Source of the DNA: Herbiconiux ginsengi
GTDB taxonomy: Bacteria; Actinomycetota; Actinomycetes; Actinomycetales; Microbacteriaceae
Direction of reading: 5' to 3'
Length of the DNA: 64,000 bases
NCBI RefSeq assembly: GCF_900107435.1
Contig: NZ_FNPZ01000002.1
Location: 698,979-762,978 of the forward strand
Shown: in pieces, positions 41,335-53,291 of the stretch
Numbering within the stretch: position 1 is the first letter of the stretch
Layout: each line of letters begins with the position of its first letter
The notes under the pieces: model-generated
Database searches by the model: none
The model's input: the letters and a program-made list of their open reading frames with translations, nothing else
Told to the model about the DNA's origin: nothing
Translations under genes and position numbers: made by a program

Positions 41335-43614
41335 ATGTCTGACGCACCCCCGACCGAATACCAGCTCACCGGACGCGATCGCACCGCGCTGAAGTTCGTG
41401 GGGGCATCGCTGGCGATCGGCAGCCCCGAGTTCCGACAGCGCTACGAGACCATCGTCGACGAGCTCTACCGCCACCACTTCATCGATCCCACCGCCCGGC
41501 CGGCCTACGAACCGCCGGTCGTCGTGCCGGTCGAAGAGGTCGAGACCGAAGACCCGCTGGAGATCATCCGCGAGCAGCTCGGCCTCGTCTTCGACGACCG
41601 CCGCGCCCGCGACACGGCGCGATCGGATGCGGAGGCCCGGCTCGCCGAGACGTCGGCCCAGCTCGCTGAGATGACCGCTCGCTACGAGGACACACAGGCG
41701 CGACTGGATGCGACGGCCGCCACCCTCGCGGCGCGCGAAGGCGAACTGGCCGCCCTGCACCAGCAGTACGCCGTCGACACGGCGGCGCTGCAACAGCAGC
41801 TCGCCGACGAGACGGCACGGCACGGCGCCCAGCTCGCCGACGAGACCGGTCGGCTGCAGGCCGAACTGGCCGCGACGACCACACGGCTCACCGAGGAGCA
41901 GCAGGCGTCGACGGCCGGATACGAGGCGCAGATCGCCGGCCTGCTCGCCGCCCACGCGACCCAGCTCGAAGAGCTGCACGCCGCGCACACCACCCAGGTG
42001 ACGCAGCTCACCGCATCGCATGACGCGCAGATCGCGCAGCTGACCGGCGCCCATGCCGCTCAGCTCGAGGAGTTGCAGCAAGCCCACGACACCGAGAGCT
42101 CGCAGCTGCGCGCCGGGCACGCGTCCGAGGCCGAGGAGTTGCGACTGCACGACGAGCAGCTGCGGGCGGCCCACGCGGCCCAGCTCGAAGAGCTCGCAGC
42201 CCAGCACGCCGCGGAGACCACGCAGCTGCGGGAGCAGTCCGCGGCCGAGATCGCCGAACTCCGGGCCGAGCACGCGGCCGAGACCGACCGCCTGCGCGCC
42301 GAAGCCGCCGCAGCAGCGGAGCAGGCGCGTGGCGACTACGAAGCCACGGTCGCCGAGCTGCAGCGCACCCGAGCCGACGCCGCCGCCGAGGCCGAACGGG
42401 TGCAGGCCGAGGCCGCCGCCGAGGCCGAACGGGTGCGAAGCGAGGCTGCCGCGGCGGCCGCTCTGCTCACCACCGAGCACGCCGCCGAGGCCGAGCGGCT
42501 GCGCGCCGAGGCCACGGATGCCGCGGCTCGGCTCCAGGCCGAGGTGGACGCCGCGCGGGCTGAGGCCGAGGAGCTGCGCGCCGGCCACGCGACCGAGACC
42601 GAGGGGCTGCGCAGTGAGGCGCAAGCGGAAGCCGAGCGCATCCGCGCCGAGGCGCAGGCCGAAGCTGAGGCCGCACGGGCCGAGGCGGAAGCAGAAGGTG
42701 AAGCCGCCCGGGCAGAGGCGCAGGCCGAAGCGGATGCCGCGCGCGCCGAGGCCGAGCGCATCCGCGCCGAGGCGGAAGCCGAAACCGAGCGCCTGCGCGC
42801 CGAGACCGCAGCCGCGCTCGAGCAGCTCGCCGCCGAGACCGAGCAGCTCCGGGCCGAGCACGCCGCCACGCTGGCGGGCCTCGCCTCACAGGGCGAAGGC
42901 GCAGAAGCGCAGGCAGCGCAGACCGCCGCCGACCTCGACGACGCCCGCGCCCGCATCAGTGTGCTGGAGAGCGAACTCGCCGACGCTCGCGACGAGACCG
43001 AGTCCGCCCGAGCAGCCGTGTTCGCCGAGGAGATCCCCTCGGAGGCCGACGCGGCCGCCCTCGACGAGGCTCGCGCCCGGGTCGCCGAGCTCGAGGAGCA
43101 GCTTGCCGAAGCCCAGGCCACGGCGGATGCGGCGACCGCGGCCGCAGCGACCGCATCCGCCGCCGCTGCCGCTGCGGCCGCCGAGCGCGAGGCTGAGGCC
43201 GCCGGAGCCGCCGCGAGCGCCGCGGCTGCGGTGGCCGTCGCTGCACCGGCCGCCGACCCGGCCGAGCTGGAAGAAGCCCGCGCCCTGGTCGCCGACCTCG
43301 AGAACGAATTGACGGCGGCGCGCACCGAGATCGGCATCCTCGCCGACGAGCGCGACCGGGCGCTCTCCGATTCGGCCATCTCGCTCGAAGACCGCGAGAA
43401 GCTGAGCGACGCCCTCACCGAGCTGCAAGCAAGCCGCAGCGTCTCGGTCGCCGCCATCGAGGCCGAGCTGCGGTCGGCGCGTGCCCTCGTCGACGAGATC
43501 GAGGAGATCGCCACCGGCCAGCTCTGCGCCGAAGACGAGACGAGCGAGTACGCGATCGGCGCGAACGACGCCGCCGTGCTGGTGCTCAACGCGATCGCGG
43601 GCGAGACCGACTGA
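41335..43614 (+). CDS. Large cytoplasmic coiled-coil protein
   Basis: A 759-residue protein dominated by Ala, Glu, Arg and Gln. Residues 1-75 form a small head (TEYQLTGRDRTALKFVGASLAIGS; FRQRYETIVDELYRHHF). Residues ~80-710 are almost uninterrupted coiled coil, with a quasi-repeat of about eleven residues in the middle (AEAERIRAEAQ, EAARAEAEAE). A short Ala-rich break occurs near 600-640, and the last ~40 residues are again globular (ATGQLCAEDETSEYAIGANDAAVLVLNAIAG). No signal peptide or membrane segment. The architecture recalls filament-forming cytoskeletal proteins such as Streptomyces FilP/Scy, but no homology can be claimed by eye. Confidence 0.82.
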   Translation: MSDAPPTEYQLTGRDRTALKFVGASLAIGSPEFRQRYETIVDELYRHHFIDPTARPAYEPPVVVPVEEVETEDPLEIIREQLGLVFDDRRARDTARSDAEARLAETSAQLAEMTARYEDTQARLDATAATLAAREGELAALHQQYAVDTAALQQQLADETARHGAQLADETGRLQAELAATTTRLTEEQQASTAGYEAQIAGLLAAHATQLEELHAAHTTQVTQLTASHDAQIAQLTGAHAAQLEELQQAHDTESSQLRAGHASEAEELRLHDEQLRAAHAAQLEELAAQHAAETTQLREQSAAEIAELRAEHAAETDRLRAEAAAAAEQARGDYEATVAELQRTRADAAAEAERVQAEAAAEAERVRSEAAAAAALLTTEHAAEAERLRAEATDAAARLQAEVDAARAEAEELRAGHATETEGLRSEAQAEAERIRAEAQAEAEAARAEAEAEGEAARAEAQAEADAARAEAERIRAEAEAETERLRAETAAALEQLAAETEQLRAEHAATLAGLASQGEGAEAQAAQTAADLDDARARISVLESELADARDETESARAAVFAEEIPSEADAAALDEARARVAELEEQLAEAQATADAATAAAATASAAAAAAAAEREAEAAGAAASAAAAVAVAAPAADPAELEEARALVADLENELTAARTEIGILADERDRALSDSAISLEDREKLSDALTELQASRSVSVAAIEAELRSARALVDEIEEIATGQLCAEDETSEYAIGANDAAVLVLNAIAGETD

Positions 43615-45015: not shown

Positions 45016-45594
45016 ATGACCGACCGCGAAGTCGACACCGCCCACGCGGGGGCTGACGCGCGGATCGTCGCCGCCACACTGGCGTTGCTGCGCGATCGGG
45101 GGCCGGGCGGGGTGAACGTCGAGGCGGTCGCCGCGACATCCGGTGTGGCGAAGACCACGATCTACCGCCGCTACGAAGACCGCGAGGCGCTGCTCGCCGC
45201 CGCCATCGACGCGGCCACCACCGAGGTCACTCTGCCGAGCGGCATGTCGACCTACGACACCTTGCATTGGCTGCTCGGCGCGGCGCGCATCCGGGTGCAG
45301 GACATCGTGGGTCGCGGCACGGTCGCCGCCATCCTCATCGACGACGGCGCCCCGTTCACCGAGCAGCTGCGCGACATGATCCGGATGCGCAGCCACCAGC
45401 TGGTCGCGTTCCTCGACGAGGCCGTTGCGCGCGGAGACCTTCGCGCCGGTCTCGACGTGAAGCTCGTGGTGAGCGTGCTGCTGGGTTCGGCGGTCGGCCA
45501 GGTCATCCGCGGCGGCGAACCCGACGAGGAGTGGGCCGACCGCCTGCTCACCTTGCTCTGGCCGGCCCTCACCCCGCCGGAGACGACGACCTGA
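45016..45594 (+). CDS. TetR/AcrR family regulator, candidate regulator of the lipid cluster
   Basis: A 192-residue protein. The DNA-binding domain is ARIVAATLALLRDRGPGGVNVEAVAATSGVAKTTIYRRYEDREALLAAAI; the helical C-terminal domain contains DDGAPFTEQLRDMIRMRSHQLVAFLDEAVARGDL, as in TetR_C_11-like proteins. It is convergent with the alkyl-DHAP synthase gene and is the nearest regulator to the ether-lipid-like cluster, which has a TetR-style palindrome in its divergent promoter. Regulation of that cluster is an inference. A 25-bp stem follows its stop. Confidence 0.9.
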   Translation: MTDREVDTAHAGADARIVAATLALLRDRGPGGVNVEAVAATSGVAKTTIYRRYEDREALLAAAIDAATTEVTLPSGMSTYDTLHWLLGAARIRVQDIVGRGTVAAILIDDGAPFTEQLRDMIRMRSHQLVAFLDEAVARGDLRAGLDVKLVVSVLLGSAVGQVIRGGEPDEEWADRLLTLLWPALTPPETTT

Positions 45595-45682: not shown

Positions 45683-47422
45683 CTAGGGGGCCGGAGCGGG
45701 CGCGGGAGCCTTTGGGGCGTTCGCCACGATCTCGGCCACGTCGTCGGCTGTGACCTGCAGGGTGCCGAGCACCTTGCCGGGGTTGAAGAGGTGCTGCGGA
45801 TCGGCCGAGTCGAACAGGCCCTGGATGAGCGCCACGCCGCCTTCGGAGATGTCCTGCTCCATCCACGGCGAGTGCTCGACGCCCACACCGTGGTGGTGCG
45901 ACAGGGTGCCGCCGGCGTCCTGGAACGCCTGCTGGATGGAGTACTTCACCACCTCGTACTGCGCGATCGGGTCGTCGCCGTGCACGAACGCGAAGGTGAA
46001 GTAGAGGCACGCCCCCGAATGGTAGGAGTGCGAGAGGTGGCACATGATCCAGCCGTGCACGCCCAGCGCCTCATAGGCCTTGTCGGCGGCAGCGACGGTG
46101 GTGTCGTACACCTCCTGCAGCTTCGACCAGGGCGCGGCCGTCTCCGACACGTCGGCCGCGGCACCGCGATCGAGGAGGAAGTCGCGGAGGTAGGGGGTGT
46201 CGAACTTCTTCTGGTCGTAGAGGGCGCCGGGGCCCTTGCCGACGCCGAGACCGCCGTGCTTCTTCACGATCGCGCCCACGAGCTTCTTCTCGTACGACAC
46301 GTGCGACGCGGAGCCCTCGTAGCCGATGAAGGAGAGGCACATGTCCTCGAGCACCCAGCCGCGGCGCTTCAGCACCGACATCAGCACGCTCTGCGCCGCG
46401 CCCGAGATGCCCTTCGACGCCTTGCGGGTGGCCAGCGAGAAGCCGCTCTCCCGCGCATCCGACACCCGGGTGATCGACGGCGACGCATCCGATTCCGAGA
46501 TCTCGTGCATCGCGGCGAGGCCGGCCTTCCAGTTCGGGAAGAAGTAGGCCTGCACCTCACGCACCTCGGGCACACGGTGAACCTGCACGGTGACCTCGGT
46601 GATGACGCCGAGTCGCCCCTCCGAACCGATGATCATCTCGCGAACGGATGGCCCGGTGGAGGTGGACGGCAGGGGCCGCAGTTCCACGATCGTGCCGGGG
46701 CGCACCATCCGGAGCCCGCGGGCGATGTCGGCGATGTCGCCGTACTTGTCCGACTGCATGCCGGAGGAGCGGGTGGCGACCCAGCCGCCGAGCGTGGAGT
46801 GCGTGAAGCTGTCGGGGAAGTGCCCCAGGGTCCAGCCCTTGGCACCCAGCTGCGCTTCGATGTCGGGGCCCTGGGCACCGGCCTGGATGCGGGCGAGACC
46901 CGATCCTTCGTCGATCTCGAGCACGCGGTCGAGGCGCCCGAGGTCGAGCGACACGATGGTGCGGGTCTCGTCGGGCAGCGGCTCGAGGCTGCCGGCGATG
47001 TTGCTGCCGCCGCCGAAGGGGATGATCACGGCGCCCTCGGCGACCGCCGCGTCGACGATCTGCTGCACGTCCCACTCGTCGGCCGGGTAGACCACGATGT
47101 CGGGAACGCGCGCGATCTCGTTGCGGCGGATGCGCAGCAGGTCGCGGATGCTCTTGCCGTAGGTGTGCACCACGCGCACCATGTCGTCGGTGTGCGCGTT
47201 CTCCTCGCCCACGATGGCCACCAGGGTCGCCTCGAACGACGGCGAGAGGCGGGGCGGCGCGATGGTGAGCTGGTCGAAGTCGAGCGGCGGAACCGGCGGG
47301 GTGCGCACATCGAGGGCCACGGCCTTCTGCACGAAGGGCACGAAGTCGGGCTTGTCCTCGAAGTGGAAGCCGACGCCCTCGAGACCCCAGCCCCACCACT
47401 TCATGTGCTTGACGTCGGTCAT
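45683..47422 (-). CDS. Alkyl-dihydroxyacetonephosphate synthase homologue (AGPS-like)
   Basis: A 579-residue FAD enzyme of the VAO/PCMH fold. AGPS swaps the acyl chain of acyl-DHAP for a fatty alcohol, making the ether bond of ether lipids. The PP-loop reads IIPFGGGSNIAG near 135; TLGHFPDSFTHSTLGGWVATRSSGMQSDKYGD is the typical FAD-binding block; IIGSEGRLGVITEVT follows. The C-terminal active-site landmarks match human AGPS: YHSGACLYFTFAF (Tyr) and SHHHGVG with the His triad near 509-511. Other VAO members such as D-lactate dehydrogenase lack the triad. The C-terminus ends in Ala-Pro repeats. The ATG overlaps the PlsC stop; it is third in the SDR-PlsC-AGPS operon. Confidence 0.88.
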   Translation of the reverse strand: MTDVKHMKWWGWGLEGVGFHFEDKPDFVPFVQKAVALDVRTPPVPPLDFDQLTIAPPRLSPSFEATLVAIVGEENAHTDDMVRVVHTYGKSIRDLLRIRRNEIARVPDIVVYPADEWDVQQIVDAAVAEGAVIIPFGGGSNIAGSLEPLPDETRTIVSLDLGRLDRVLEIDEGSGLARIQAGAQGPDIEAQLGAKGWTLGHFPDSFTHSTLGGWVATRSSGMQSDKYGDIADIARGLRMVRPGTIVELRPLPSTSTGPSVREMIIGSEGRLGVITEVTVQVHRVPEVREVQAYFFPNWKAGLAAMHEISESDASPSITRVSDARESGFSLATRKASKGISGAAQSVLMSVLKRRGWVLEDMCLSFIGYEGSASHVSYEKKLVGAIVKKHGGLGVGKGPGALYDQKKFDTPYLRDFLLDRGAAADVSETAAPWSKLQEVYDTTVAAADKAYEALGVHGWIMCHLSHSYHSGACLYFTFAFVHGDDPIAQYEVVKYSIQQAFQDAGGTLSHHHGVGVEHSPWMEQDISEGGVALIQGLFDSADPQHLFNPGKVLGTLQVTADDVAEIVANAPKAPAPAPAP

Positions 47423-48174
47423 GCTGCCCCTTTCTCGGAGTTTCGGGTGTCAGCCGAGCTGATCGGCAACGCGGGGATGGCAGCGGTGCCCGCCCCGGTG
47501 GAATGCAGTCGGCGCACTTCGCGCTCGATGCGGGTCGAGAACTGGTCGGGCGTCTCGCCCGGAAGCGCGAGCATCGGCTGCCCGAAGACCACCGCGACCG
47601 GCGGGCGGCCCGGGATCGGCCAGTTGCGTCCGCGCGGCATGGCGAGGCTCGCGCCCACGATGGCCACCGGAACGCAGGGCACGTCGCACGACATCGACAG
47701 CGCGGCGGCGCCGGGCTTGAAACCGGCCATCGCGCCGGTCTTCGAACGGGTGCCCTCGGGGAAGACGAGCAGCGGAACCCCGCGGTTCAGCAGCTTCTTC
47801 GACACGCCCGGCTTGGCGGCCGTTCCGGTGCGGTCGATCGGGAAGGCGTTGAAGAACAAGGAGGTGAGGATGCGCCGCCACCAGATGTCGAAGAAGTAGT
47901 CGGCCGCGGCACCGGCGGCGAGGTAGCGCCCGAGTCGCCGGGGCAGCGCGCACATGATGAGCGGGGCATCCAGGTGGCTGGAATGGTTCGCCACCGCGAT
48001 GAACGCGCCGTGCACGCCCTTCACGGCGTCGTGCCCGCGCACACTGACGCGGGTGATCGACCAGACCACGGGTTTCAGCACCATGCGCTGGGCGACGAAG
48101 CGCATCCCGGCCATCACGCCCGAGGTGAAGCGGTCTTTGGGAGCCCGGATCAGGTGCGGATGCTTGTCGGTCAT
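47419..48174 (-). CDS. 1-acylglycerol-3-phosphate acyltransferase family (PlsC)
   Basis: A 251-residue membrane-associated acyltransferase. The HX4D motif is NHSSHLD near 70; LLVFPEGTRSKTG is the second motif, followed by PCVPVAIVGAS. The N-terminal MVLKPVVWSITRVSV helix may bind the membrane. It would acylate glycerol-3-phosphate derivatives, in this context probably 1-alkyl-glycerol-3-phosphate or DHAP. ATGA overlaps are found on both sides, with the SDR gene upstream and the AGPS-like gene downstream. ATG 48174 rather than the longer open frame is chosen because of the overlap. Confidence 0.9.
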   Translation of the reverse strand: MTDKHPHLIRAPKDRFTSGVMAGMRFVAQRMVLKPVVWSITRVSVRGHDAVKGVHGAFIAVANHSSHLDAPLIMCALPRRLGRYLAAGAAADYFFDIWWRRILTSLFFNAFPIDRTGTAAKPGVSKKLLNRGVPLLVFPEGTRSKTGAMAGFKPGAAALSMSCDVPCVPVAIVGASLAMPRGRNWPIPGRPPVAVVFGQPMLALPGETPDQFSTRIEREVRRLHSTGAGTAAIPALPISSADTRNSEKGAA

Positions 48175-48965
48175 GGAGTCACCGTCACTTCTGCCGGTTT
48201 GTTCCGGCTCGAGGAGATGCGGCCCGAGACCCAGCGGATGACGCGCCGCGGGAGATGACGGGTGAAGAAGAGGAGCACCTTGAAGCGTGCCGACGGCACC
48301 GAGAGCACCTTGCCGCGGGCGACGTCGCGCAGGCACTCCTCGACGAGTTCGTCGGCGTCGAGCCAGAGGAAGCTCGGGATCGACCTGGTGCGGATGCCCG
48401 CGCGGTCGTGGAATTCGGTGCGCACCCAGCCGGGCAGCACCGCGGAGACCTGCACGTTCGTCGAGCGGAGTTCGACGGCGAGCGACTCGGTGTATGCCGT
48501 CGTCCAGGCCTTCACCGCGGAGTAGTTGCCGGTGGCGATCGTGCCCGCCACGCTCGAGACGTTGAGGATGGTGCCCTTGTGCCGTGCGGTCATCGCCCGG
48601 CCTGCTGCGCCGCCCAGGATGAGCACCGCGAGGCACATCACCGTGAGCGCGCGCTCCTGCACGCTCACGTCGCGTTCGAGCAGCGACCCGTGGATGCCGA
48701 AACCCGCGTTGTTCACGAGGAAGTCGATCGGCTCGTCGGTGCTCTCCAGCCGAGCGGCCACGCGATCGATGTCGGCGCGCACCGCGAGATCGGCCGAGAT
48801 CGTCTCCACGCGCGTCGCACCGTCACGGCCGAGTTCTTCGGCCATGCTCTGGAGCCGGGATTCGTCGCGAGCGACCAGCACGAGGTCGTAGCCTCGCAGC
48901 GAGAGCGCTCGGGCGAATGCGGCACCGATACCGGATGTGCCACCGGTCACCAGAGCCGTCGCCAT
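48171..48965 (-). CDS. Short-chain dehydrogenase/reductase, candidate alkyl-DHAP reductase
   Basis: A 264-residue classical SDR. The cofactor motif is TGGTSGIG at 7-14, NNAG at 85-88, catalytic Ser near 137-138 (NVSSVAG), Tyr148 and Lys152 (YSAVKA). The C-terminal FKVLLFFTRHLPRRVIRWVSG is amphipathic and may touch the membrane, as in SDR enzymes acting on lipids. In mammals the alkyl-DHAP reductase (DHRS7B) is an SDR, so with AGPS and PlsC downstream this is its natural counterpart; the substrate is inferred. It is the first gene of the minus-strand operon. ATG 48965 lies next to a perfect palindrome. Confidence 0.86.
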   Translation of the reverse strand: MATALVTGGTSGIGAAFARALSLRGYDLVLVARDESRLQSMAEELGRDGATRVETISADLAVRADIDRVAARLESTDEPIDFLVNNAGFGIHGSLLERDVSVQERALTVMCLAVLILGGAAGRAMTARHKGTILNVSSVAGTIATGNYSAVKAWTTAYTESLAVELRSTNVQVSAVLPGWVRTEFHDRAGIRTRSIPSFLWLDADELVEECLRDVARGKVLSVPSARFKVLLFFTRHLPRRVIRWVSGRISSSRNKPAEVTVTP

Positions 48966-48976
48966 CTGCTTAGGAT

Positions 48977-48997
48977 ACGCTACGGAGTGCGTAGCGT
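48977..48997. promoter_or_regulatory. Perfect palindromic operator in divergent promoter
   Basis: ACGCTACG-GAGTG-CGTAGCGT: 8-base perfect arms with a 5-base centre. It starts 11 bases upstream of the SDR start codon and about 75 bases before the start at 49072, in the only promoter region shared by the two lipid operons. Length and symmetry fit a TetR-family dimer site. TAGGAT at 48971 could be part of a promoter element. Confidence 0.65.
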
Positions 48998-49071
48998 CAG
49001 ACGTGCGCACCCGAAATCCACCCCACGTACGCCGCCCACGCGGAGGGATCCCGTTGTCCGGAGAGCAGACG

Positions 49072-50106
49072 ATGTCCGTCGAAGAAGAAGCACCCCTTCC
49101 CTTCGACGTGCGCGATTTCGCCCGGACGGCGGTCGGCAGCCACCGCGACTCGATCGACCTGGCCGCCTTCGCCGAGCATCCGCTCGACCCCGGCACCGTG
49201 CGCATCCTCGCCTACATGCGCGAGCTCGAGCGCTCGACCATGACCTACCTCCGCAACGTGCTGGTGACGCCCACCCACAAAGACGCGCGGGTCACCGCCT
49301 TTCTCACCACCTGGGCGTTCGAGAAGTACTGGATCGCCGACGCCTTCGAGGTGATCGTGCAGGCGCACGGATACGACGCCGCCGGAATCCAGGATCTCCC
49401 GCGCCTGCGCGCCCTCGGCCTCGAGATCGCGGAGCGTGCGACCCCCATCGTGGAGTCGTTCCGCGCCAACTCGATCGGGGCCGACGTCATCGGCCTGCAC
49501 CTCGCCTCGGTGACGATCGACGAGTGGATCACCGAGGCCGCCCACCTCCGCCTCGCCGCTCTCGACCCGCACCCTGAGCTCGTGAAGCTGCTCGCCACGG
49601 TGCAGACCGTGAAGGCACGGCACCGCCGGTTCGTGGAACCCGACGCGGTGCGCCGACTCACCGACTCGAAGCGGGCGCGCTCGCTCGCCCGGCGCGCTCT
49701 GCCGCGCACCAGCTGGCCGATCGGCGCCTCGAGTCTGCGCCGGTCGGAGACGGCCTTCTTCTACCGCACGCTCGTCAGCGAGGCACTCGCGACGGAGATC
49801 GACGAGCACGTGCGGAGCACGCTGCCGGGTCTCAGCACGCTCACGCTGGTGAGCACTGCTCGACGCCGCGCGCTGGCCAGGGGCGGTGCCTCGAACGAGG
49901 TGGCACGCCGATTGGGTCGCGCGGCATCGCTGCTCCGGCACCCGCGCGCTGCGACCGCCGCCGGCGGATCCACCGGATCGGCCGCCGCCGACACCACTGG
50001 CGCAACACAGACGACCGGCACCACCGACACCACTGGCGCAACACAGACGACCGGCACCACCTCCACCGACACGCACACCGAACAGAAAGGCGGAGCGCCA
50101 GGATGA
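49072..50106 (+). CDS. Ferritin-like (diiron-fold) protein that has lost metal ligands
   Basis: A 344-residue protein clearly paralogous to the one at 52497: both share AEHPL/REHPL, YLRNVLVTPTHKD / YLRDMLVTPSHKD, and EW then ARH later. In the intact paralogue ligands are Glu45, Glu77xxHis80, Glu141 and Glu171xxHis174; here the equivalents are Glu53, Lys85xxIle88, Glu151 and Lys181xxHis184, so three of six are gone and a diiron centre is unlikely. A Thr/Gly-rich C-terminal tail of about 55 residues carries two exact 36-base repeats. ATG 49072 is used. Its stop overlaps the reductase gene (ATGA). It is perhaps a regulatory or structural partner of the intact paralogue. Confidence 0.82.
   Translation: MSVEEEAPLPFDVRDFARTAVGSHRDSIDLAAFAEHPLDPGTVRILAYMRELERSTMTYLRNVLVTPTHKDARVTAFLTTWAFEKYWIADAFEVIVQAHGYDAAGIQDLPRLRALGLEIAERATPIVESFRANSIGADVIGLHLASVTIDEWITEAAHLRLAALDPHPELVKLLATVQTVKARHRRFVEPDAVRRLTDSKRARSLARRALPRTSWPIGASSLRRSETAFFYRTLVSEALATEIDEHVRSTLPGLSTLTLVSTARRRALARGGASNEVARRLGRAASLLRHPRAATAAGGSTGSAAADTTGATQTTGTTDTTGATQTTGTTSTDTHTEQKGGAPG
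49990..50061 (+). repeat. 36-bp tandem duplication inside a CDS
   Basis: Two exact copies, 49990-50025 and 50026-50061, beginning GACACCACTGGCG. They encode two 12-residue units rich in Thr and Gly (TTGATQTTGTTD-like) in the disordered tail of the ferritin-like protein; the frame is kept. Confidence 0.95.
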
Positions 50107-52484
50107 CCGACGCCTCCCCGACCGACCCCACCACGCCGCACGCGGCCCCGAACCCCGGCTTCACCCTGGGCTCGTCGCACGTGCTGCTCACAGGGGCCAC
50201 CGGCTTCGTGGGGCAGGCCGTTCTCGAGCGACTGCTGTCGTCGCATCCGGACACCCGGATCTCGCTGCTCATCCGCCCGAAGTCGACCACCAGCGGCGAA
50301 TCGCGGCTCACCACGCTGCTCAAGAAGCCCGTGTTCCGCACCTGGCGCGAGGCCGTCGGCGAAGCCGAGGTCGAGCGGGCCGTGCGCGAGCGCATCACGG
50401 TCATCCAGGGCGACCTCGCCAACCCGGGCGAGCTGCCCGGCGACCTCGACGTCGTGATCCACGGCGCCTCCACCGTGAGCTTCGACCCGCCCATCGACGA
50501 GGCGTTCCAGACCAACGTCGACGGCGCGACCGGCATCTACGGCGCCCTGCTCGCCTCGGGCAGCGACCCGCACGTCGTGCACGTCTCCACCGCCTACGTG
50601 GGCGGGATGCGCAAGGGCGTGCGCCTCGAGGCCTCGCTCGAGCACGACATCGACTGGCGCATCGAGAACGCCGCCGCGAAATCGGCCCGCCTCCGTGTGG
50701 AGATGGCCTCGCGCCAGCCCGAGGTGCTCAGCAGTCTGCTCGCCGCCTCGCGGGCGAAGCTCGGCAAGGTGGGGCCGCAGGCCGTCGCCGCCGACGCCGA
50801 GGCCGCTCGCATCGAGTGGGTCACCAAGCGGCTCGTCGAGAGCGGCCGCATCCGCGCCGAGTCGCTCGGCTGGACGGATGTGTACACGCTCACGAAGGCC
50901 TTCGCCGAGCGGGCCGCCGAAGAGCTCTGGGGCACCGCCGGGCACCGCCTGTCGATCGTGCGCCCCTCCATCATCGAGAGCGCTCTGCGGCATCCGTTCC
51001 CCGGCTGGCTCGACGGCTTCAAGGTGGCCGATCCGCTGATCATGGCCTACGGGCGCGGACAGCTGCCCGAGTTCCCGGGCGTGCCCGACTCGATCCTCGA
51101 CGTCATCCCGGTCGACTTCGTGGTGAACGCCATCCTCGCCGCCGCGGTGACGCCCGCGAAGGTCGACGAGCCGAACTACTACCAGGTGGTCTCCGGCGCT
51201 CGCAATCCGCTGCCGTTCCACACGATGTACGAGAACGTCAAGGAGTTCTTCACCACCAACCCGATGCCGCACGTCGACGGCCCGATCCAGGTGCCCTCGT
51301 GGCGCTTCCCGGGCGGCCGTTCGGTCGAGCGCACCCTGAAGCTGCAGGAGCGCCTCGCCTCGGCCGCCGACGACGTGGTGGGCCGGATGCCGTCGACCAC
51401 CCGCACCCGACGGTGGACCCAGGCGCTGCACCGCCGCCAGTCGGGCCTCACCCAGTTGCGCTACTTCGCCGAGCTCTACCGGGCCTACGTGCAAACCGAG
51501 CTGATCTTCGACGACCGCAACACCCGGGCTCTGGACGCGACCGTTCCCGAGGAGCTGCGCGCCGACGTCTCCTTCAACGTTGTCGACATCGACTGGCACG
51601 ACTACTTCCAGAACGTGCACTTCCCCTCGATCACGGGGCTCACGAAGGCCTACGCCTCGCGGCCGGCCGGCAAGGCCCGCGCCAAGCGCGCCCTGCCGGT
51701 GCGGAGCGACGTGCTCGCGGTCTTCGACTTCGAGGGCACGGTGGTGGAGTCGAACCTCGTTGAGCAGTACCTCTGGGTGCGGCTCGGCCTCATCCCGAAG
51801 GCGCAATGGCCGCAGGAGTTCGCGTCGCTGATGCTCTCGGTGCCGAAGTACCTGCGGGTCGATCACCGCGACCGGGGTGAGTTCATCCGCACCCTGGTGC
51901 GCCGCTACCGCGGCATCAAGGTCGCCGACCTCGAGCAGCTGGTACAGGGGCGTTTCGGCGCCGCGATGCTCTCGCGGGCCATCCCGGATGCGCTCGATCG
52001 GGTCGCGCAGCACCGCGCCGCCGGTCACCGCACCGTTCTCGTCACCGGCGCCACGTCGTCGGCCGCGGAACCGTTCGCGCAGTTCTTCGACGACGTGGTG
52101 GCCGGCGAGATGCACGCCAACAAGGGCGTGCTCACCGGCTACCTCGCCACTCCCCCGCTGGTCGACGAGGCGCGCGCCGCCTGGCTGCGCGAATACGCCA
52201 CCCAGCACGGGGCGAACCTCACCCAGTCCTACGGCTACGGCGACAGCCTGGCCGACGTGGCCTGGCTGCAGTTGCTGGGAAACGCCACCGTGGTCAATCC
52301 CGACACCGAACTGTATCGGCACGCGCAACGAACCAAGTGGACGGTCGAGGACTGGACCAGACGTTCATCCGAAAGTCAGCTGGTTCCCGGTAACCTGAGC
52401 CTGCTGCCCGACGCCCAACGGCCGACCGCCGCGAAGCCCGCACCCGAGGAAGGAGACCGGTCGAACGCGAACGACGCGCGCTGA
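50103..52484 (+). CDS. Fatty acyl reductase (FAR, SDR-type) fused to HAD-IB domain
   Basis: A 793-residue fusion. Residues ~24-350 are an extended NAD-binding domain of male-sterility/FAR type: GATGFVG at 31-37, HVSTAYVGG near 160, YTLTK with Tyr261 and Lys265. Residues ~360-515 resemble the FAR C-terminal domain (DIDWHDYFQNVHFPSITG). Residues ~535-760 are a SerB-like HAD domain: VFDFEGTVVES with nucleophile Asp542, but Glu544 where the second Asp is usual, then VLVTGATSS and GYGDSLADVAWL. The FAR part should reduce acyl-CoA or acyl-ACP to aldehyde or alcohol, the substrate AGPS needs. Overlaps with the upstream gene and a 12-base gap downstream show one operon. Confidence 0.88.
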   Translation: MTDASPTDPTTPHAAPNPGFTLGSSHVLLTGATGFVGQAVLERLLSSHPDTRISLLIRPKSTTSGESRLTTLLKKPVFRTWREAVGEAEVERAVRERITVIQGDLANPGELPGDLDVVIHGASTVSFDPPIDEAFQTNVDGATGIYGALLASGSDPHVVHVSTAYVGGMRKGVRLEASLEHDIDWRIENAAAKSARLRVEMASRQPEVLSSLLAASRAKLGKVGPQAVAADAEAARIEWVTKRLVESGRIRAESLGWTDVYTLTKAFAERAAEELWGTAGHRLSIVRPSIIESALRHPFPGWLDGFKVADPLIMAYGRGQLPEFPGVPDSILDVIPVDFVVNAILAAAVTPAKVDEPNYYQVVSGARNPLPFHTMYENVKEFFTTNPMPHVDGPIQVPSWRFPGGRSVERTLKLQERLASAADDVVGRMPSTTRTRRWTQALHRRQSGLTQLRYFAELYRAYVQTELIFDDRNTRALDATVPEELRADVSFNVVDIDWHDYFQNVHFPSITGLTKAYASRPAGKARAKRALPVRSDVLAVFDFEGTVVESNLVEQYLWVRLGLIPKAQWPQEFASLMLSVPKYLRVDHRDRGEFIRTLVRRYRGIKVADLEQLVQGRFGAAMLSRAIPDALDRVAQHRAAGHRTVLVTGATSSAAEPFAQFFDDVVAGEMHANKGVLTGYLATPPLVDEARAAWLREYATQHGANLTQSYGYGDSLADVAWLQLLGNATVVNPDTELYRHAQRTKWTVEDWTRRSSESQLVPGNLSLLPDAQRPTAAKPAPEEGDRSNANDAR

Positions 52485-52496
52485 CCGACATCTCTC

Positions 52497-53291
52497 ATGG
52501 CATTCGACATCGACAAGTACACGGAGACCTCGCAGAAGGTCGCGTGGCAGGATCTCGACTTCTCCGACTTCCGCGAGCATCCGCTGCCCGAGGGCACGCT
52601 GCGGTCGCTGCGCTACATGTGCGACATCGAATACCACACGGTCTGCTACCTGCGCGACATGCTGGTGACTCCCTCGCACAAGGATGAAGACGTCACGGCG
52701 TTCATGACGATGTGGAACCGCGAGGAGTTCTGGCACGGCGAGGCCCTCGCCGCCGTTCTCGCCGAGCACGACGTGATCGTCGACTTCGACGAGCTCAAGG
52801 CCACGCGCCTGAAGCTGGGCTGGAAAGACCGCCTCGATCCGGTGAAGCAGTCACTGCTCGGCAACATCGTGGGCTCGGGCTTCATCGCCGTGCACATGGT
52901 GTGGGGAGCGGCCAACGAGTGGTCGGCGGTCGCCGCCTACAACCGGCTCGCCGATCTCGAGGCGCATCCGGTGCTCGCGGAGCTCTTGCGCCGCATCGCG
53001 AAGCAGGAGGCACGGCACGTGGCGTTCTACGCCACGCAGGCGCGCGAGCGTCTCGCCAAGAGCAAGAAGGCTCAGGTGCTGGCGCGCTTCGCGCTGAAGA
53101 ACTTCTGGGGCCCGGTGGGCTCGGGTGTGATGACCGACGCCGAGGTCAAGCACGTGATGGGCCACCTCATGGGCGGCCCCGACGGCCGTCGCGAGGCCGC
53201 CAAGATCGACGCCCACATCGCCCGCATGCCCGGCCTCGACGGCCTCACCATCGTGCAAGACGCGCTCGACGCCCGAGGCATCGCCGCCTGA
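52497..53291 (+). CDS. Ferritin-like diiron protein, candidate lipid oxidase/desaturase
   Basis: A 264-residue helical protein with a complete set of carboxylate-bridged diiron ligands in the four-helix order: Glu45 (DIEYH), Glu77xxHis80 (EEFWH), Glu141 (ANEWS), Glu171xxHis174 (QEARH). The E / ExxH / E / ExxH pattern is that of acyl-ACP desaturases and related oxygenases. No membrane helix or transit signal. It ends the operon with a fatty acyl reductase and a ligand-poor paralogue. In an ether-lipid pathway the expected oxidative step is vinyl-ether desaturation or chain desaturation; that is hypothesis. A 26-bp stem-loop follows the stop. Confidence 0.82.
   Translation: MAFDIDKYTETSQKVAWQDLDFSDFREHPLPEGTLRSLRYMCDIEYHTVCYLRDMLVTPSHKDEDVTAFMTMWNREEFWHGEALAAVLAEHDVIVDFDELKATRLKLGWKDRLDPVKQSLLGNIVGSGFIAVHMVWGAANEWSAVAAYNRLADLEAHPVLAELLRRIAKQEARHVAFYATQARERLAKSKKAQVLARFALKNFWGPVGSGVMTDAEVKHVMGHLMGGPDGRREAAKIDAHIARMPGLDGLTIVQDALDARGIAA

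Follow-up and report, generated by a model that had tools for sequence, protein, structure and literature searches.

A conserved gene cluster of Herbiconiux and related actinobacteria that probably directs O2-dependent synthesis of plasmalogen-type ether lipids

Which genes could account for the vinyl ether lipids that some aerobic actinobacteria appear to contain? The question is raised by a locus of Herbiconiux ginsengi, located in a 64,000-nucleotide stretch of contig NZ_FNPZ01000002.1 (hereafter, the window), where two divergent operons bring together a homologue of alkyl-dihydroxyacetone phosphate (alkyl-DHAP) synthase (AGPS), a PlsC-type acyltransferase, a short-chain dehydrogenase/reductase (SDR), a fatty acyl reductase (FAR) and two ferritin-like proteins, denoted here diironA and diironB. 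Dimethyl acetals (DMA), the usual sign of vinyl ethers or plasmalogens (PMC7472656), are known from aerobic Subtercola in reports dating back to 2000 (cited in PMC5945732 and PMC7472656). The cluster offers a gene-level explanation, testable in cultivable strains, for the DMA of these aerobic relatives. That the cluster is concerned with ether lipids we regard as very likely, and the locus probably makes plasmalogen-type ether lipids by an O2-dependent route that includes a new soluble candidate desaturase and its inactive partner.

The minus-strand operon consists of SDR (48171..48965, ATG at 48965; PF00106), a candidate alkyl-DHAP reductase of the ketoreductase type, followed by PlsC (47419..48174, ATG at 48174; PF01553, 76.9 bits) and AGPS (45683..47422, 579 amino acids; Pfam FAD_binding_4 and FAD-oxidase_C), with 4-bp overlaps at both the SDR/PlsC and the PlsC/AGPS junctions; the ATG starts of PlsC and SDR were refined from the sequence in this analysis. 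In the plus-strand operon, diironB (49072..50106, ATG at 49072), a diverged paralogue of diironA without diiron ligands and a candidate partner subunit, overlaps by 4 bp a fusion (50103..52484) of FAR (PF07993, 165 bits) with a C-terminal HAD-IB phosphatase-like domain (51717..52268; PF12710, 103 bits), and diironA (52497..53291), the candidate vinyl-ether desaturase by its ligand pattern and predicted fold, follows after a 12-bp gap. A preliminary description of this locus had named five genes (AGPS-like, PlsC, SDR, FAR and diiron), all of which were recovered at the positions it gave; its remark that the genes overlap or nearly so agrees with the 4-bp overlaps of the minus-strand operon and the 12-bp gap between FAR and diironA. 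It overlooked diironB, the HAD domain, a TetR gene and a 21-bp palindrome in the divergent promoter.

The grouping of these genes is not a product of chance. Among the 80 named loci fetched with the diironA protein itself (the best 80 of 167), AGPS, PlsC, SDR, diironB, FAR, HAD and diironA are all present in 67, and order and orientation are the same in 66 of the 67, the exception being Phytoactinopolyspora (L070; L and G numbers denote individual loci and genomes), in which AGPS-PlsC lies on the other side. Thus, the genes singled out by the preliminary description do stay together in relatives, the co-location of AGPS with FAR and SDR genes included. The 13 loci short of the full set comprise two short contigs (L062 and L111), a contig that begins within PlsC (L094), nine loci with the diiron pair alone nearby (L068, L084, L087, L089, L090, L093, L099, L106 and L110), and L098, which has diironA without the rest, the full cluster being found on another contig of the same metagenome-assembled genome (MAG; L100, L148). 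In Naasia (L068), AGPS, PlsC, SDR and FAR-HAD are grouped elsewhere in the genome (L147). A different arrangement is seen in another family of the same order (L163), where all six genes, with overlapping ends, follow a TetR gene on one strand; L111 shows the beginning of this gene order.

Co-occurrence was also analyzed in genomes that were not selected via diironA. Among 249 Microbacteriaceae genomes, 69 have an AGPS orthologue (E ≤ 1e-150), 76 have a diiron-pair match (E ≤ 1e-10) and 68 have both (Fisher p ~ 1e-50, a value that overstates independence because these genomes are related). AGPS without a diiron match was found in a single genome (G539), and a diiron match without AGPS in eight, in one of which (G544) the match is near a contig end. 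Of the 68 genomes with both, 67 have diironA and one (G550) has a diironB-like copy only. A sample of 396 genomes of the phylum contained 30 with diironA matches (E ≤ 1e-3), several of these matches being weak, and 80 with AGPS homologues (E ≤ 1e-60).

The AGPS protein is a full-length homologue of alkyl-DHAP synthase and, judging by its sequence, is predicted to catalyze the acyl-for-alkyl exchange on DHAP. Its residues 44-551 align with Dictyostelium ADPS, an alkyl-DHAP synthase (2uuu), at 404.6 bits, and residues 78-548 align with guinea-pig AGPS (4bby) at 287 bits, with D-lactate dehydrogenase as the next family (81 bits); on these scores, a plain glycolate or lactate oxidase was rejected. 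The SHHHGVG motif noted in the preliminary description occupies residues 508-514. We compared the positions of guinea-pig T309, R419, R515, Y578 and H615-617, which we take to be the active-site residues, across 63 AGPS sequences (the window included; 5 of the 67 relatives, shorter than 500 amino acids, were left out): T309 is conserved in 61, with Ser in the other two, and all the other positions are conserved in 63 of 63. Conservation in the remaining enzymes is similarly strict, with the NHxSHLD and FPEG blocks of PlsC present in 68/68 sequences, YxxxK of SDR in 70/70, and the D and E of the HAD motif I, DxEGT, in 69/69. The usual motif I of HAD phosphatases is DxD, and Glu as the second acid is uncommon in a phosphatase. 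In addition, the FAR-HAD fusion gives a PF03015 match of 28.9 bits, below the cutoff.

In diironA, the putative metal ligands E45, E77xxH80, E141 and E171xxH174 are kept in 81 of 81 sequences (the 80 loci and the window), and this E, EXXH, E, EXXH pattern, combined with a ferritin-like predicted fold, is the one found in soluble acyl-ACP (acyl carrier protein) desaturases. The preliminary description had recognized a diiron protein that could introduce a double bond; the ligand pattern and the distantly desaturase-like predicted fold fit that proposal, and the reaction itself would be of this kind. By contrast with diironA, both EXXH motifs are broken in diironB, with Lys or Arg at position 77, no His at position 80 and Lys or Arg at position 171 in 77 of 81 sequences. 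The other four carry the diironA residues, since the diironB query had diironA itself as its best match there; three of these were dropped before tree construction, and L089 stayed as a copy of its own diironA. The lysines that replace ligands may act as stand-ins for the metal charges. In the tree, diironB branches are much longer.

The AlphaFold2 models of diironA (for which 40 diironA and 19 diironB sequences were aligned) and of diironB are confident, with predicted local distance difference test scores of 88.6 and 87.5, respectively. When the diironA model was searched against solved folds, the 16 best matches were plant acyl-ACP desaturases, followed by an R2-like oxidase (17th) and DesA2 (18th). 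For diironB, the best match was a plant desaturase (E = 0.016) and R2-like oxidases came next. At the sequence level, diironA scores 18.8 bits against PF03405 (cutoff, 22.7), a PF03405 match at E ≤ 0.01 was obtained for 40 of the 59 sequences in the diiron alignment (19 of the 59 are diironB), and a profile search of Protein Data Bank sequences with this alignment yielded weak matches only. Thus, diironA resembles soluble acyl-ACP desaturases, such as plant stearoyl-ACP desaturase and Mycobacterium tuberculosis DesA2, in its predicted fold and in having two EXXH motifs and two further Glu, but differs in its low identity (15-18%), in a PF03405 score below the cutoff and in being nearly always paired, in Microbacteriaceae, with a ligand-less paralogue. 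Metal-less partner subunits of diiron enzymes are exemplified by yeast Rnr4 and by the beta subunits of bacterial multicomponent monooxygenases. The predicted diironA-diironB complex would be of the same design, pairing a catalytic subunit of the ferritin-like type with a homologue that lacks the ligands, although the protein families differ.

Could one of the known vinyl-ether enzymes perform this step? A search for PF10520, the membrane His-rich domain of the CarF/PEDS1 family, to which diironA does not belong, found no match in the genome of the window or in any of 12 named genomes, of which 10 carry the cluster and 2 have the diiron pair without it. The search itself works because it matches 18 of the 396 phylum genomes, although none of the 6 Microbacteriaceae in that sample. 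Similarly, PF09989 (DUF2229), which we take to be contained in PlsA, was absent from the same genome and the same 12, with matches in 4 of 14 control genomes. CarF and PlsA were accordingly set aside as the vinyl-ether enzyme in these organisms. As a separate observation, PF10520 genes are carried by the genome G185, which has an AGPS homologue as well, and by genomes of family f34 (L167-L169); the PF10520 family is wider than CarF.

Published lipid analyses are available for several relatives that carry the cluster. Summing the values in Table 2 of PMC5945732, we obtained DMA contents of ~22% for Subtercola vilae DB165, 26-27% for S. frigoramans, 29% for S. boreus and 21% for S. lobariae; the chains are mainly iso-16:0 and anteiso-15:0, and the fatty acids are saturated, the sole unsaturated acid in that table being a trace of a-15:1 in S. 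boreus (PMC5945732). We found the cluster in S. vilae DB165 (L072), the measured strain itself, in S. lobariae (L064) and in S. boreus strains other than the measured one (L074, L076 and L091). The polar lipids of S. vilae are described as phosphatidylglycerol, diphosphatidylglycerol, glycolipids and unidentified lipids, with no phosphatidylethanolamine (PMC5945732), so that the substrate of the desaturase is probably not phosphatidylethanolamine, unlike that of PEDS1. In Kineococcus rubinsiae, gas chromatography-mass spectrometry showed anteiso-15:0 DMA under a peak that the MIDI system had called 14:0 2-OH, a result described there as surprising and taken as a sign of plasmalogens (PMC7472656). 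The cluster suggests that plasmalogens may at times be concealed under "14:0 2-OH" in the fatty acid profiles of aerobes, as was found for this strain; Frondihabitans is reported with 14:0 2-OH and without DMA (PMC5945732).

These observations can be combined into a candidate pathway. FAR would convert iso or anteiso acyl chains to fatty alcohols; AGPS would swap the acyl group of acyl-DHAP for a fatty alcohol, yielding alkyl-DHAP; SDR would reduce this to alkyl-glycerol-3-phosphate; and PlsC would acylate the sn-2 position (or possibly DHAP too), giving 1-O-alkyl-2-acyl-glycerol-3-phosphate. The HAD domain may dephosphorylate the alkyl-acyl intermediate, feeding glycolipids. Finally, diironA, held together with the metal-less diironB, would remove two hydrogens in an O2-dependent reaction and thereby create the 1'-alkenyl (vinyl ether) bond, a task that CarF/PEDS1 performs with an unrelated fold; that of diironA is soluble. 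We favor, with modest confidence, diironA as the protein that forms the vinyl ether, and lean slightly toward regarding the pair as a third, evolutionarily independent route to this bond, namely an O2-dependent, soluble desaturase of the ferritin-like type that depends on a metal-less pseudoenzyme as its partner. If this is true, a known kind of pathway gains a variant whose desaturase may be of a new kind. No such cluster was named in the titles and opening parts of abstracts of the open-licence literature on ether lipids, DMA or plasmalogens in Microbacteriaceae or aerobic actinobacteria, which is weak evidence of novelty.

The inferred set of reactions is that of the mammalian peroxisomal pathway (FAR1, GNPAT, AGPS, PexRAP/DHRS7B, AGPAT and PEDS1/TMEM189), with fatty alcohol formation, alkyl-DHAP synthesis, ketone reduction, sn-2 acylation and O2-dependent desaturation (PMC9131029). 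Here, however, there is a single bacterial cluster with a soluble ferritin-like pair and a HAD domain, no PF10520 was found, a counterpart of GNPAT was not identified, and phosphatidylethanolamine is an unlikely substrate. The closest known gene sets are those of Myxococcus xanthus, which makes plasmalogens aerobically: MXAN_1674-1676 (AGPS, a FAR-acyltransferase and an NAD-dependent epimerase/dehydratase) and the elb operon with ElbD and the HAD protein ElbB, together with CarF (PMC9131029). AGPS, FAR, acyltransferase and reductase are brought together in the former and a HAD protein occurs in the latter, whereas in the present cluster FAR is fused to HAD rather than to an acyltransferase, the candidate desaturase is not CarF and the diiron pair lies within the cluster. 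Aerobic plasmalogen desaturation has been assigned to CarF/PEDS1, and true bacterial CarF is listed only for Leptospira and a single suborder of the myxobacteria (PMC9131029). The anaerobic plasmalogen reductases PlsA/PlsR lead to the same class of end product, but chemistry and genes differ (PF09989, 0/12).

Several observations weigh against this assignment. The matches of diironA to solved folds are distant, with identities of 15-18%, a template modeling score of ~0.6, a root-mean-square deviation of 6-9 Å and a best E value of 3e-4, and only 3 of them reach E ≤ 0.001 (6-8 Å). No dedicated, GNPAT-like DHAP acyltransferase was identified, the cluster having PlsC alone, and no genome-wide search for PlsB or GNPAT was made; of the candidate complete ether-lipid pathway proposed in the preliminary description, AGPS homology, co-location, predicted fold and Subtercola DMA support the plasmalogen-type pathway as a candidate, but do not show it to be complete. 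Agreia has at most 4% of one DMA despite the cluster (PMC5945732), which we found in four loci (L088, L097, L101 and L103). In Frigoribacterium, where two MAGs (L077 and L082) carry the cluster, F. adelgis D8 and F. faeni have anteiso-15:0 aldehyde/DMA and two other species are described without it (PMC12823222). The comparison of DMA with the cluster took in only taxa with reported DMA, and literature searches yielded no lipid data for Herbiconiux. Further, a clade of Agromyces, two Leifsonia, Glaciibacter flavus and two further relatives has the diiron pair away from cluster genes (L084, L087, L089, L090, L093, L099, L106 and L110, and also L161 and L162). This clade (11 sequences, one being the duplicate L089 row) is nested among cluster-type proteins with a Shimodaira-Hasegawa-like approximate likelihood ratio test support of 99 by a quick method, so the pair probably left the cluster once and would have kept or changed a function independent of this AGPS. 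At E ≤ 1e-60, AGPS was absent from all seven Agromyces and Leifsonia genomes of the clade that were searched (L093 was outside the search); of two further genomes of the clade, G324 has a distant AGPS (36%, E = 1e-95) and G281 has none. Because this clade is mostly without AGPS, the diiron pair can act without the cluster. Among order-level relatives, neither L164 (the pair) nor L165 (diironA) has AGPS within ~10 kb. For 10 diironA homologues of 38-48% identity that come from outside the class, tblastn with the cluster proteins detected neither AGPS nor FAR nor PlsC in the surrounding stretches that were covered, and the open reading frames at 8 of these loci, read by eye, gave no lead.

Given the resemblance of diironA to acyl-ACP desaturases and the free-standing pairs, the cluster might make alkyl ethers only, with diironA and diironB acting as an in-chain desaturase or hydroxylase of acyl-ACP or acyl-CoA, or on a precursor before the ether is formed, and with another enzyme making the vinyl ether. 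We consider this unlikely, since Subtercola combines abundant DMA with fatty acids that are saturated apart from the trace of a-15:1, so that no abundant in-chain product is seen (PMC5945732, Table 2), and the markers of known vinyl-ether enzymes (PF10520 and PF09989) were not found. A different desaturase could be encoded elsewhere in the genome, PF00487 and other PF03405 proteins being outside the survey.

Two other explanations have much lower probability. AGPS could be a flavin oxidase that acts on a different lipid, with a wax or keto-lipid, for example, as the product of the cluster: PF02913 is a broad family, with three matches in the genome of the window, and a mycolate-type or wax pathway was considered because the best NCBIfam model of SDR is mycolate_SDR, albeit at 165 bits, far under the cutoff of 380. 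As the main interpretation it was rejected in view of the much stronger and specific homology to AGPS (a solved AGPS scores 404 bits and the best lactate dehydrogenase 81, and the AGPS residues are conserved); DMA published for cluster carriers also argue against it. The last explanation, that FAR releases fatty aldehydes, free or bound to protein, and that these rather than vinyl ethers give rise to the DMA, draws on the fact that aldehydes, too, yield acetals on acid methanolysis. It appears about equally improbable, given that at least 20% of chains would be hard to square with free aldehyde and that the retention of AGPS, SDR and PlsC with FAR would be left unexplained. An O2-dependent plasmalogen-type pathway thus accounts best for the genes and the published lipids together.

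The two operons appear to share their regulation. A perfect 21-bp palindrome, ACGCTACG-N5-CGTAGCGT (48977..48997), lies in the divergent promoter 11 bp upstream of the SDR start, and a gene for a TetR-family regulator (45016..45594, plus strand; PF00440 and PF16859) is located just beyond AGPS, a position in which TetR is found in many but not all loci. Of the 67 loci with the full gene set, one (L067) was skipped because of its spacing, 14 whose coverage was too short were set aside, and 52 were scored, TetR-linked loci being those with a TetR match above 120 bits within 2.5 kb. With cut-offs fixed after a first look at the sites, an operator-like score of at least 13/16 was obtained in 27 of 27 TetR-linked loci (all at least 15) and in 1 of 25 unlinked ones (L085, exactly 13), and a score of 13 was reached in 10 of 1040 composition-shuffled controls; a chance origin of the operator was rejected on these counts. 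Three of the loci set aside (L034, L038 and L047) have an operator-like site, and two (L048 and L072), with an adjacent, more distant TetR (34% and 41%), are without one. The best reading of this sequence pattern is that TetR would control both operons by binding to one predicted operator.

The window belongs to a Herbiconiux-like Microbacteriaceae genome, and its diironA shares 95-99% identity with the proteins of named Herbiconiux strains. The diironA of L034, a record titled Corynebacterium-like bacterium B27, is 100% identical to that of the window, and the record looks like a mislabelled Herbiconiux relative. In Subtercola and Labedella, ~2.5 kb separate FAR-HAD from diironA; in S. vilae this spacer (L072, 7402-9102) encodes a protein with a lactate-racemase N-domain (PF09861) and a second PlsC, and an extra PlsC is also present in L064, L074 and L048. 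Two genomes from outside the class (L149 and L150) have an AGPS 58% identical beside PlsC, with no diironA match, and L153, a distant diironA locus, contains a second, partial diironA copy. Near the cluster, the window encodes a long alanine/glutamate-rich coiled-coil protein (41335-43614), related pieces of which are found in other Herbiconiux loci.

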